Source of the DNA: Lysobacteraceae bacterium CU05-9
Lineage (GTDB): Bacteria > Pseudomonadota > Gammaproteobacteria > Xanthomonadales > Xanthomonadaceae
Length of the DNA: 64,000 nucleotides
Assembly (NCBI GenBank): GCA_007556525.1
Contig: SWJS01000002.1
Coordinates: forward strand, 186,001 to 250,000
Direction: 5' to 3'
Positions 8,661 to 15,816 of the stretch are shown here, piece after piece. The translations under genes and the position numbers were made by a program. Position 1 is the first letter of the stretch; every line of letters begins with the position of its first letter. The notes below the pieces were generated by a model. It made no database searches, was not told the origin of the DNA, and saw only the letters and a program-made list of their open reading frames with translations.

Positions 8661-9538
8661 CTCGCACGCTTCGAGCTGGAAGTCAGTTGCACGCCGATGA
8701 TCGACAACAACACCAACGCAAACCCAATGCCGGTCCGTGCCGTCAACGATTGACCGAGAAACACCCAGCCAAGTATCACCGCCGCCAAAGGACTCAGTAA
8801 CGCGAGTGATGAAACGGCTGCAGGCGAGATGCGCGCCGCAGCACGACACCACAATGAATACGCCAACACCGATCCGAACAAACACAGGTATGCGTATCCA
8901 AGCACGTTACGCGGCGTGAGCGACGGCAAAGAAGGATCGACGAACAACGCGAGCGGCAACAACATCAAGCCACCGAGCAACAACTGCCATCCTGTCAACG
9001 CAAGCACGGGCATCGGCAGCTTCCATCGATTAGTGAGAAATGTTCCGAGCCCCATGCATGCCGCACCACCCAACGCAGCGGCGACACCGATCGTGTCCCA
9101 CTTCGCGGACGGGCCCAATAACAAAACTGCCATGCCAAGAACGCCAATGAACGCAGCGAGCCATGCGGATTTGGAAGGAGGTATTTTGTCGACAACCAAA
9201 ATCAACACCATCACCATCAACGGCTGCACCGCACCCATCACCGCCGCTAACCCACCCGGCAATCGGTAGGCCGCAATGAAAAGCAACGCTTGAAACACAC
9301 CGATGTTCAACGCCGACAATGCAAGGAGCTTGCGCCAGTTCTCACGCAACGGCAATTTGAATCCCGTCGTCGCGATGAGAATCAGACCCGCAGGCAGGCA
9401 TCGAAACAACGCTGCCCAATAGGGTCGCTCAGGCGGCAAAAATTCCGTCGTCACCATGTACGTCGATCCCCAAATCAAAGGGCCGATGGCGGTCGTCAGA
9501 ATGAGTGGCCAGTTAATCGCATCGCGTTGGGAATTCAT
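8657..9538 (-). CDS. EamA/DMT-family transporter (YedA-like)
   Basis: A 293-aa inner-membrane protein with about ten hydrophobic segments arranged as two EamA domains. The N-terminal IGPLIWGSTYMVTTEFLPP is typical of the drug/metabolite exporters related to YedA and RhtA. Such proteins export amino acids or other metabolites; the substrate is not predictable. Its start overlaps the stop of the upstream patatin gene (9535) by four bases, so the two are translationally coupled on one transcript. Confidence 0.88.
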   Translation of the reverse strand: MNSQRDAINWPLILTTAIGPLIWGSTYMVTTEFLPPERPYWAALFRCLPAGLILIATTGFKLPLRENWRKLLALSALNIGVFQALLFIAAYRLPGGLAAVMGAVQPLMVMVLILVVDKIPPSKSAWLAAFIGVLGMAVLLLGPSAKWDTIGVAAALGGAACMGLGTFLTNRWKLPMPVLALTGWQLLLGGLMLLPLALFVDPSLPSLTPRNVLGYAYLCLFGSVLAYSLWCRAAARISPAAVSSLALLSPLAAVILGWVFLGQSLTARTGIGFALVLLSIIGVQLTSSSKRAS

Positions 9539-10512
9539 TGCGCTATGTTAACAGCGGCGGCGCGATGCGAAAGCATCGTCAGCACTCTCGGATCCTGCAA
9601 CGCAATCTGTGCGCGCGCATGACCCAAGGTATTGAGAACTTCACGGGCATCGGCGTCGATTTTGTCGAGAGCAACTTTGCTTGCATCATCATCGGAAAGC
9701 ACATCATCCAGCATGACGTATCGCTCTTCGGTGAGGCGGTGACGCAAGATCGAATCCGCAACAATTTCCTGCGCCGAGATCGACAGCTCCAGAAGGTGTC
9801 GCGGCGCTCTCAAAGGATTGAACCCACCCCAATCCAGCATTCCTCCCCGGCCGTTCCGTGTTTGCGTCGTCCGCTGCGTCGTACCCGTTGTTCCAATCGC
9901 GAGAATATACATATCCCGCTCTTCGCATGACATGTGAAAGTCCGCCTCGTTCAACGCGATGGCACCAGGTGCATTGGCAAACAAACCACCATCGAGATAT
10001 TCCCGATTATTCAAAACGAATCGCGGGAAATATGCAGGCGCCGCACTCGTTGCGAGAGCTACATCAACTAACCGTGTGTTCGCGCCTCGCATGTCCAATG
10101 GATCGTGAGGCGTTGCAAAAACAACCGGCGCCCCATTCGAGTAATCCAACACCGGAATGATCGTCGGATGCTTCAACTCCTGCAAAGTGCGTGTGCCGAA
10201 CCATGCATCGTCGCCGAGCAATTCACGCATCGCATCGGTCGTGTAAGGCGATTGCCACATACCGAACGTATTTCGTCTTCGGAAAATATCGCCGCCGTGC
10301 AGTTCAAACATCCGCACGATGTCGGCAGTTGGTTTCTCGAGCGCGATCGCCAGCGCAATGATGCCACCGATCGACGTACCGGCGAGAAGTCCGAAGCAGT
10401 TGGCGAGTGGCGTTCCAGCTTTTTGCTCGAGTGCGTCCAAGATCCGTGCCGTATACAAACCACGGAAACCGCCTCCGGAGAGCGCGAGAATCTGAAAACG
10501 CTTGGTATCCAT
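9535..10512 (-). CDS. Patatin-like phospholipase, CapV-like
   Basis: A 325-aa patatin-family lipid acyl hydrolase. The Ser-Asp dyad is intact: the oxyanion loop SGGGFRG at the N-terminus, GTSIGG with nucleophile Ser47, and DGGLFANAP with Asp174. The compact layout, with ILALSGGGFRGLYTA at the very start, resembles CapV phospholipase effectors of CBASS defence more than the large FrsA or RssA types. However, no cyclic-dinucleotide synthase, Cap2/Cap3 or other defence gene is adjacent. It lies 72 bp downstream of an unusual tRNA gene and is coupled to the EamA gene after it. A general lipid-hydrolase role is equally possible. Confidence 0.85.
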   Translation of the reverse strand: MDTKRFQILALSGGGFRGLYTARILDALEQKAGTPLANCFGLLAGTSIGGIIALAIALEKPTADIVRMFELHGGDIFRRRNTFGMWQSPYTTDAMRELLGDDAWFGTRTLQELKHPTIIPVLDYSNGAPVVFATPHDPLDMRGANTRLVDVALATSAAPAYFPRFVLNNREYLDGGLFANAPGAIALNEADFHMSCEERDMYILAIGTTGTTQRTTQTRNGRGGMLDWGGFNPLRAPRHLLELSISAQEIVADSILRHRLTEERYVMLDDVLSDDDASKVALDKIDADAREVLNTLGHARAQIALQDPRVLTMLSHRAAAVNIAQ

Positions 10513-10584: not shown

Positions 10585-10687
10585 TGGTACCCCCGGCGGG
10601 AATCGAACCCGCGTTGCCGCGCTTATCTGGCGCGTGCTTTCACCGGTTTATAAGTCCGGCGCTTTGACCAACGTTAGCTACAGGGGC
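10585..10687 (-). tRNA. Atypical tRNA gene, anticodon UAU (AUA/Ile codon), long variable region
   Basis: The minus strand folds as a cloverleaf ending in encoded CCA. The acceptor is GCCCCTG pairing with CGGGGGT and discriminator A. The D arm has TTGG, a three-pair stem and an A-A mismatch. The anticodon arm CCGGA-CTTATAA-ACCGG has four pairs plus an A-A mismatch and reads anticodon TAT. The T arm is GCGGG-TTCGATT-CCCGC. Between anticodon and T arms lies a 30-nt variable region holding a second perfect hairpin (CGCGC, loop CAGATAA, GCGCG). Total length is 103 nt, longer than ordinary class I or II tRNAs. Whether it is charged with Ile is unknown. Confidence 0.7.
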
Positions 10688-10695
10688 AAATATCG

Positions 10696-10714
10696 AAAAA
10701 ACGCTTAGCCAGCG
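10696..10714 (-). terminator. Terminator of the modABC operon
   Basis: Reading the minus strand, CGCT-ggcta-AGCG is followed by six T residues. The hairpin lies inside a larger 8-bp inverted repeat (AATATCGA / TCGATATT, 10689-10723). It sits 64 bp past the modC stop and just ahead of the tRNA-like gene, so it separates the two transcripts. Confidence 0.6.
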
Positions 10715-10777
10715 CTCGATATTCGGAATTGCCTGTGCATGGTTGATGTGTTGATCATTGGCATAGCATACCGCAAA

Positions 10778-11401
10778 TCAATCGATTTGAATCACCGTAT
10801 CCGCCAGCCGTTCAACTTCACTCGCGTCATGGCTGACATACAGAATCGGCAACTTCAATTCATCACGAATGCGTTCGATGACGGTCATGATGTCGTCACG
10901 TCTCGCTCGGTCCAACGACGACAATGGTTCGTCCATCAAAAGGAACCGTGGACCACTGAGCAGTGCCCTACCGATGGCAACGCGTTGTGCCTCACCGCCT
11001 GACAATGTGTTCGGCGTTCTGTCGAGGAGATGCTTGATTCCGAGGAACTCTGTCGCTTCATCCAACGACATCCAACGACGTTCCGGTGCCGAGAGATTCC
11101 AGCCGAACAACAAATTCTCGCGGACACGCTTGTGCGGAAACAATCGATCATCTTGAAACACGTAGCCGGCGCGGCGATGTTCGGGAGCGACGTTGATTTT
11201 GGAAGAACCATCAAAAACCACTTCACCATCGACACAAATCGTACCTTCGTCAGGTGTCAGCAATCCCGCAATCATGTTGAGGATGCTTGTCTTGCCCGCA
11301 CCCGACGGACCAAACAACGCCGTCAAGCCACTCGGCGCGGTGAACGTCGCACGCACTTGCGTGTCGCCAAGCTTCTTGAGGAGATGGACGTCAAATGACA
11401 T
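10778..11401 (-). CDS. modC: Molybdate ABC transporter ATP-binding protein, short form without MOP/TOBE domain
   Basis: A 207-aa ABC ATPase that powers molybdate import. It has Walker A GPSGAGKTS (31-39), the signature LSGGEAQR (133-140), Walker B FLLMDEP (153-159) and the switch His in YVSHD. Typical ModC proteins are about 350 aa and carry a C-terminal molybdate-binding MOP/TOBE domain. This one stops right after the ATPase core, with no frame-shifted remnant visible in the 90 bp before the terminator. The start overlaps modB by 11 bp. Last gene of modABC. Confidence 0.88.
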   Translation of the reverse strand: MSFDVHLLKKLGDTQVRATFTAPSGLTALFGPSGAGKTSILNMIAGLLTPDEGTICVDGEVVFDGSSKINVAPEHRRAGYVFQDDRLFPHKRVRENLLFGWNLSAPERRWMSLDEATEFLGIKHLLDRTPNTLSGGEAQRVAIGRALLSGPRFLLMDEPLSSLDRARRDDIMTVIERIRDELKLPILYVSHDASEVERLADTVIQID

Positions 11402-15740: not shown

Positions 15741-15816
15741 TGGTGGGCCCACCAGGACTCGAACCTGGAACCAAAGGATTATGAGTCCTCTGCTCTAACC
15801 ATTGAGCTATAGGCCC
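15741..15816 (-). tRNA. tRNA-Ile(CAU), lysidine type
   Basis: The 76-nt minus-strand sequence folds as a standard cloverleaf with encoded CCA. The acceptor GGGCCTA pairs with TGGGCCC, the D arm has GCTCAATGGTTAGAGC, the anticodon loop CTCATAA reads CAU, and the T arm is CCAGG-TTCGAGT-CCTGG. The 6-bp-rich acceptor and the GGACTCATAATCC arm match the minor isoleucine tRNA whose C34 is changed to lysidine by TilS so that it reads AUA, rather than a methionine tRNA. Confidence 0.85.

Follow-up and report, generated by a model that had tools for sequence, protein, structure and literature searches.

The DNA analyzed here, a stretch of 64,000 nt from Lysobacteraceae bacterium CU05-9 referred to below as the window, encodes a tRNA that, judged from sequence, has two anticodon arms: a UAU arm after the D arm and a GAU arm before the T arm. 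The gene belongs to a widely shared group of real bacterial and phage tRNA genes and is neither decayed nor an oddity. The features by which this architecture is proposed to be recognized, all present in the window gene and its relatives, are (i) a UAU arm and (ii) a GAU arm with a 7-nt loop, in which GAU lies ~12 nt from the T stem. The structure, its conservation, and its linkage to UAU can be read directly from the aligned genes. The molecule is probably a horizontally moving tRNA for AUA in which the two jobs of an anticodon are split between the two arms.

Architecture of the window gene

On the minus strand, the first half of the gene reads GCCCCTG TA GCTA ACGTTGGTCA AAGC G CCGGA CTTATAA ACCGG and the second half TGAAAGCA CGCGC CAGATAA GCGCG GCAAC GCGGG TTCGATT CCCGC CGGGGGT A CCA (Table 1). 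The acceptor stem has seven pairs, a G1·U72 wobble among them, and the T stem has five; A73 serves as discriminator, and the gene itself encodes the CCA end. With 51.4 bits (E 4e-8) against the Rfam tRNA model RF00005, the gene scores above the gathering score of 29, and together with the covariation among its relatives this places it within the RF00005 family. It is flanked by genes for an ABC-transporter ATPase (10778-11401, minus) and a patatin (9535-10512, minus) and occurs in one copy in the genome (2.35 Mb, 99.97% complete). ARAGORN misses the gene and calls no member of the two-armed family in the window.

Table 1. Coordinates of the two-armed tRNA gene and its parts in the window
Feature	Positions	Strand	Details
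Whole tRNA gene	10585..10687	(-)	103 nt; 5′ end at 10687; CCA at 10587-10585; full-length relatives exist
First anticodon loop CTTATAA	10648..10654	(-)	Anticodon UAU at 10652-10650; arm at 10659-10643
Adjacent D-stem 3′ strand AAGC	10661..10664	(-)	Partner 1 of GCTA at 10678-10675
Linker AAGC-A	10635..10639	(-)	Repeat of the D-stem 3′ strand, then an A like that at position 26; partner 2 of 10678-10675
Second anticodon arm CGCGC-CAGATAA-GCGCG	10618..10634	(-)	17 nt: 5 bp, 7-nt loop; stem covariation
GAU triplet of second loop	10625..10627	(-)	12 nt before T stem
GCAAC between second arm and T stem	10613..10617	(-)	5 nt, a normal class I variable-loop length
Leader with CCGAATAT and hairpin AATATCGA..TCGATATT	10688..10726	(-)	Directly before the tRNA

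An earlier note on this DNA had described a 103-nt cloverleaf with encoded CCA, a 30-nt variable region with GAT in a 7-nt loop, A13×A22 and A31×A39 mismatches, and an anticodon loop CTTATAA that gives UAU. All of these are found again, with the cloverleaf running from 10687 to 10585 on the minus strand and a variable region that reads TGAAAGCA-CGCGC-CAGATAA-GCGCG-GCAAC, GAT being at the center of the loop. The note's description of an unusually shaped tRNA of the AUA type (UAU), in which a second hairpin resembles an anticodon arm, is supported. The A31×A39 mismatch is usual for the family, in which 31-39 is paired in only ~60% of relatives. The note was also right in giving the variable hairpin the form of an anticodon arm and in seeing GAT at the anticodon place, but it overlooked the normal distance from this anticodon to the T stem, the second D-stem 3′ strand, and the fact that GAU is both the ordinary anticodon of tRNAIle and the conserved core of the loop.

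The minimum free energy of the window tRNA is -42.0 kcal/mol (z -1.87). In the free fold, the UAU stem has six pairs (G26-U44 is added) and the variable hairpin gains two pairs beyond a bulged A. The existence of relatives whose stems covary puts the tRNA far beyond chance.

Relatives and the second anticodon arm

The 189 distinct relatives were collected from chromosomes, from plasmids of Xanthomonas, and from phages that infect many different hosts; their sequences share ancestry, and counts among them are not independent events. Full-length relatives with 80-83% identity are present in 4 of 198 genomes of the family and on 20 Xanthomonas plasmids. Phages of Vibrio, Pectobacterium, and Klebsiella carry relatives that are ~73-79% identical, most of them annotated as tRNA-Ile, and further forms occur in Acinetobacter, Stenotrophomonas, and Synechococcus phages. 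A tight-pattern scan matched more than 120 viral contigs and 49 stretches of genome contigs, at least two of the latter (L079 and L117) by chance. The genome-contig matches span Gamma-, Alpha-, and Betaproteobacteria as well as Planctomycetota, Nitrospirota, and others in metagenome-assembled genomes. Occurrence is patchy: in the order, 13 of 398 genomes have the gene, and in the phylum 1 of 398, the latter being the window's own. A reversed control pattern gave no match in the order and phylum genome scans. Phage copies sit in tRNA arrays. The best explanation is that this tRNA for AUA moves horizontally. Orthologues with conserved stems, on which the earlier note had made its reading depend, are thus at hand, and its argument against decay is borne out: stems that covary across relatives rule a decayed gene out.

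A hairpin with a 7-nt loop is present in 188 of 189 distinct UAU tRNAs with long variable regions. Because the loop motif itself helped find part of this set, two scans that leave the variable region free were used. After removal of identical sequences, [AT]GAT[AT] occurs in the variable region of 72 of 80 and 43 of 43 unique matches, compared with 9% and 16%, respectively, of shuffled variable regions; both scans combined give GAU in 115 of 123 unique matches at a chance level of 9-16%. In nearly all of these matches the distance from GAU to the T stem is 11-13 nt; for the third anticodon base of an ordinary tRNA it is 12 nt. The eight exceptions include one TAGATGG loop, which keeps GAU, and two GGACG loops, and some of them are not clearly tRNAs of the two-armed type. 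When the second loop is fixed and the anticodon is left free, 77 of 77 viral contigs read UAU. No convincing two-armed tRNA with another decoding anticodon is present among the loci fetched for UAU tRNAs.

The consensus of the second loop is [C/U][A/U]GAU[A/U][A/G], with the variants CAGATAA, TAGATAA, CAGATTA, TAGATTG, and CTGATAA; the last (CUGAUAA) we take to be the loop of tRNAIle(GAU) itself. In the loop counts over 188 members, which include sequences retrieved via the loop motif, positions 34-36 are G, A, and U in 182-183, and positions 32, 37, and 38 vary. U33 is replaced by A in 175, position 37 (where bacterial IleRS prefers t6A) is U in 34, and A38 is found in 174 of the GAU loops compared with only 44 of the UAU loops. 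A73 is kept in 186 of the 188. The UAU relatives L278 and L307 carry a GGACG loop in place of GAU in the second hairpin. Kissing between AUAAG of the second loop and CUUAU of the anticodon loop was considered and rejected; it is possible in CAGATAA members and broken in CAGATTA members, though GAU stays.

In the long form of the tRNA, pairs 1-5 of the second stem are formed in 97-100% of members, with many compensatory changes, and pair 6 in 23%, so the stem is one of 5 bp, as in an anticodon arm. The check on covariation of the variable hairpin that the earlier note had suggested thus yields a stem whose covariation spans five pairs and no more. When 29 diverse members are aligned with MAFFT, 97.2% of the cells of the second stem are paired, with a covariation score for the whole structure of 0.76, versus 0.20 when shuffled. 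On this comparative evidence, the second hairpin is not a chance shape.

Short and long forms of the tRNA differ in what precedes the second arm. In the short form, the second arm directly follows the UAU arm without a linker in 28 cases, often with a canonical variable loop, e.g., AGGTC, behind it, which amounts to an ordinary tRNA plus one 17-nt anticodon arm. Three pairs of the short-form second stem are regular; G·G and A·C often take the place of the next two. The long form has a linker, e.g., TGAAAGCA or CAAAGCA, before the GAU arm. The end of this linker (AAGC-A, GAGC-A, or AGGC-A) repeats the D-stem 3′ strand and adds a base like that at position 26. With the linker strand, positions 10, 11, and 12 are paired in 92 of 93 long-form members; with the adjacent D-stem strand, 11 and 12 are paired in 93 of 93, 13-22 in 63, and 10-25 in only 17. 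Members with C12, found in Rhodanobacter only, have G in both D-stem 3′ strands, a covariation that is perhaps a single event. By nearest-neighbor energy, the two conformers are a median of -0.3 kcal/mol apart; this would allow a switch but is weak evidence for one, because nearly the same number of pairs is exchanged. A Levitt-type pair between the last base before the T stem and a D-loop purine is present in 165 of 181 relatives, always as G-C or A-U (126 in shuffles), and its retention places the tRNA core in register with the five-base tail of the second arm. In a Nevskia copy (L109:4402-4468), a third hairpin (CCTCACGCACCGTGAGG) separates the UAU and GAU arms.

ARAGORN names seven relatives (L087, L089, L092, L095, L099, L102, and L113) tRNA-Ile(gat); it mistakes the second arm for the anticodon arm and sets the 5′ end wrongly, and database entries of the family may be misnamed.

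Chromosomal and plasmid copies share a leader, seen before the gene in L073, L074, L082, L087, L104, and others, in which CGAATAY lies 25-40 nt upstream of the tRNA and is followed by a hairpin that often takes bases 1-4 of the tRNA into its 3′ strand, e.g., GGCGTGATCG..CGATCACGCC. Most chromosomal relatives have CGAATA upstream; it is found in 1.2% of 60-nt windows drawn at random from the same loci and in only 11 of 94 phage copies, and GAATA precedes 0 of 35 other own tRNAs. By the score used here, the leader helix is present in 36 of 48 copies versus 28 of 132 control tRNAs. The leader looks like a processing or regulatory element. In ten loci (L065, L089, L092, L094, L096, L098, L099, L102, L110, and others), a protein of ~180 aa, annotated as a 3′-5′ exoribonuclease on one plasmid, adjoins the tRNA on either side. 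A calcineurin-like phosphoesterase is encoded downstream of the tRNA in L072, L081, and L111.

Host context and known isoleucine tRNAs

The host has TilS and a candidate CAU tRNAIle2, and AUA accounts for 32 of 1151 Ile codons in the predicted ORFs of the window; both speak against an evident host need for the two-armed tRNA. The CAU tRNA that the earlier note had placed at 15741-15816 is real (74.6 bits), and its loop CTCATAA would fit the lysidine type. Neither a second IleRS nor an absence of TilS is seen in the host, and AUA-rich neighbor genes, considered as a reason for the chromosomal copies, are not seen either. AUA use is ~22% in viral contigs with the two-armed gene and the same in those with a short-loop form. 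At least 108 distinct viral UAU tRNAs (L393-L512) have ordinary short variable loops and good stems, and they mostly keep A38. The second arm is therefore not obligatory for every UAU tRNA but one solution and not the only one, and the idea that UAU tRNAs always need it is ruled out. The rarity of UAU stressed in the earlier note holds on bacterial chromosomes (PMC8007984) and fails in phages, where UAU tRNAs with short variable loops are common.

Like tRNAIle(GAU), the two-armed tRNA has A73 and a 5-bp arm whose 7-nt loop holds GAU at 12 nt from the T stem; it differs in the A33 of its GAU loop and in the extra UAU arm. It shares with tRNAIle3 the UAU anticodon for AUA and A73. Known Ile3 tRNAs typically have ordinary variable loops. 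The organisms with tRNAIle(UAU), or Ile3, include Mycoplasma, Bifidobacterium, Neorickettsia, and lactic acid bacteria (PMC8450103, PMC9976931). Theirs are listed as bacterial tRNAIle3 genes that partly replace tRNAIle2, whereas the tRNA described here has a second anticodon arm, and its host keeps TilS, a CAU tRNA with a CTCATAA loop, and an IleRS of unaltered type, with no replacement of tRNAIle2/TilS. Nor is it a tRNAIle2 of the lysidine type, in which TilS modifies CAU, its anticodon being UAU. No published description of a two-anticodon-arm architecture was found in open-access full text, where a literature search brought up synthetic or nematode cases only, and one may exist elsewhere.

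Two triplets in one tRNA and what they would do

In 2013, Taniguchi reportedly found that tRNAIle(UAU) is charged poorly by E. coli IleRS and that W905R restores charging. If bacterial IleRS charges UAU poorly but reads GAU, an AUA reader with U34 would need another signal for IleRS, and GAU in a second arm is the obvious one. The IleRS of the host is single copy and has the CxxCW motif (CGRCW), the W of which may correspond to W905. IleRS identity depends on the discriminator and the anticodon, with A73 being an isoleucine determinant (PMC9976931), and E. coli IleRS does not attach isoleucine to a tRNA whose C34 is unmodified (PMC11938285).

For charging, decoding, and a switch between them, we infer the following scheme. 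The UAU arm would pair with AUA on the ribosome, while the GAU arm would imitate the anticodon arm of tRNAIle(GAU), such that IleRS would recognize GAU there and the tRNA would receive isoleucine through this arm without lysidine modification. The A that replaces U33 would keep the GAU loop from decoding, and its presence in 175 of 188 members speaks against decoding by this arm. In the long form, the 5′ strand of the D stem could pair with either of the two 3′ strands; stacking of the GAU arm under the D stem would give a charging form and stacking of the UAU arm a decoding form. Taken further, and tentatively, the tRNA may be bistable, with two arms that compete for one D stem, one read only by the synthetase and the other only by the ribosome. 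Mobile elements could in this way decode AUA as isoleucine, without lysidine synthesis, in hosts whose IleRS rejects U34.

It is unlikely that the second arm instead serves as a decoy or shield, mimicking the anticodon arm of tRNAIle(GAU) so that a defense enzyme that cuts tRNAs is absorbed or evaded, with the UAU tRNA as a surviving spare. Such enzymes are known, and one of them cuts within a variable loop (PMC13096335); the two-armed tRNA is common in phages and plasmids; however, it is also present on chromosomes, a decoy would need neither the tie to UAU (77 of 77) nor a complete tRNA with A73 and CCA, and no nuclease specific for the tRNAIle(GAU) loop was found in the open-access literature. 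Distinctly unlikely is an uncharged regulatory or mobile-element RNA, similar to the role proposed for the allo-tRNA(UAU) of soil metagenomes. While the patchy presence across the order, the conserved leader, and the AUA-poor hosts would suit such an RNA, all tRNA features are kept under covariation, including the Levitt-type pair, the T loop, A73, and CCA, and phages place the two-armed gene in tRNA arrays. The purely regulatory RNA that the earlier note had considered finds no support here. Allo-tRNA(UAU) itself (Mukai 2017, reviewed in PMC7609411) shares UAU, an extra stem, and patchy occurrence with the window tRNA. Its acceptor/T stems are 8/4 or 9/3-9/4, compared with 7/5 and U8 in place here, and one proposed fold has an extra loop between acceptor and D arm, whereas the extra arm here stands before the T arm; the window gene falls outside that class.

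The long variable arm could also point to class II behavior, that is, to a leucine (or tyrosine) acceptor that reads AUA. A73 fits LeuRS and TyrRS, and a nematode tRNA with UAU and a long variable arm, nev-tRNAIle(UAU), is charged with leucine in vitro (PMC4300185). That tRNA belongs to a nematode lineage, and the abstract on it mentions no GAU loop. The class II tRNAs for Ser, Leu, and Tyr have a long variable arm in common with the two-armed tRNA but differ from it in arm length, loop, and distance to the T stem. The arm of the window tRNA, with its 7-nt loop and conserved GAU, ends 5 nt before the T stem compared with 0-2 nt in Ser controls, which sets it apart from class II, and the second loop is 10 nt from the T stem in 136 of 188 relatives; class II arms in the same loci, such as those of long-armed Ser tRNAs, end ~1 nt before the T stem and mostly have 4-nt loops. 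Class II behavior would leave the type-independent GAU unexplained and is very unlikely. Least probable is a dual decoder, a molecule that would switch between an arm reading AUA and an arm reading AUU/AUC. Isoleucine is the amino acid for both triplets and the long form has two D-stem partners, but position 33 of the GAU loop, where U is needed for the U-turn, is A in 175 of 188 members, and position 37 is U in 34 of 188.

In textbook tRNAs with anticodon identity, the same three bases serve both the ribosome and the synthetase. The present analysis identifies a tRNA family that gene finders miss or misname, as ARAGORN does in calling none in the window and several relatives tRNA-Ile(GAT). 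If division of labor between the UAU and GAU arms is true, codon reading and amino-acid identity would be split between two arms of one tRNA, and natural selection could pull the triplets for ribosome and synthetase apart. Such a tRNA would explain lysidine-independent reading of AUA by a tRNA carried on phages and plasmids and would provide tRNA engineering with a new blueprint.
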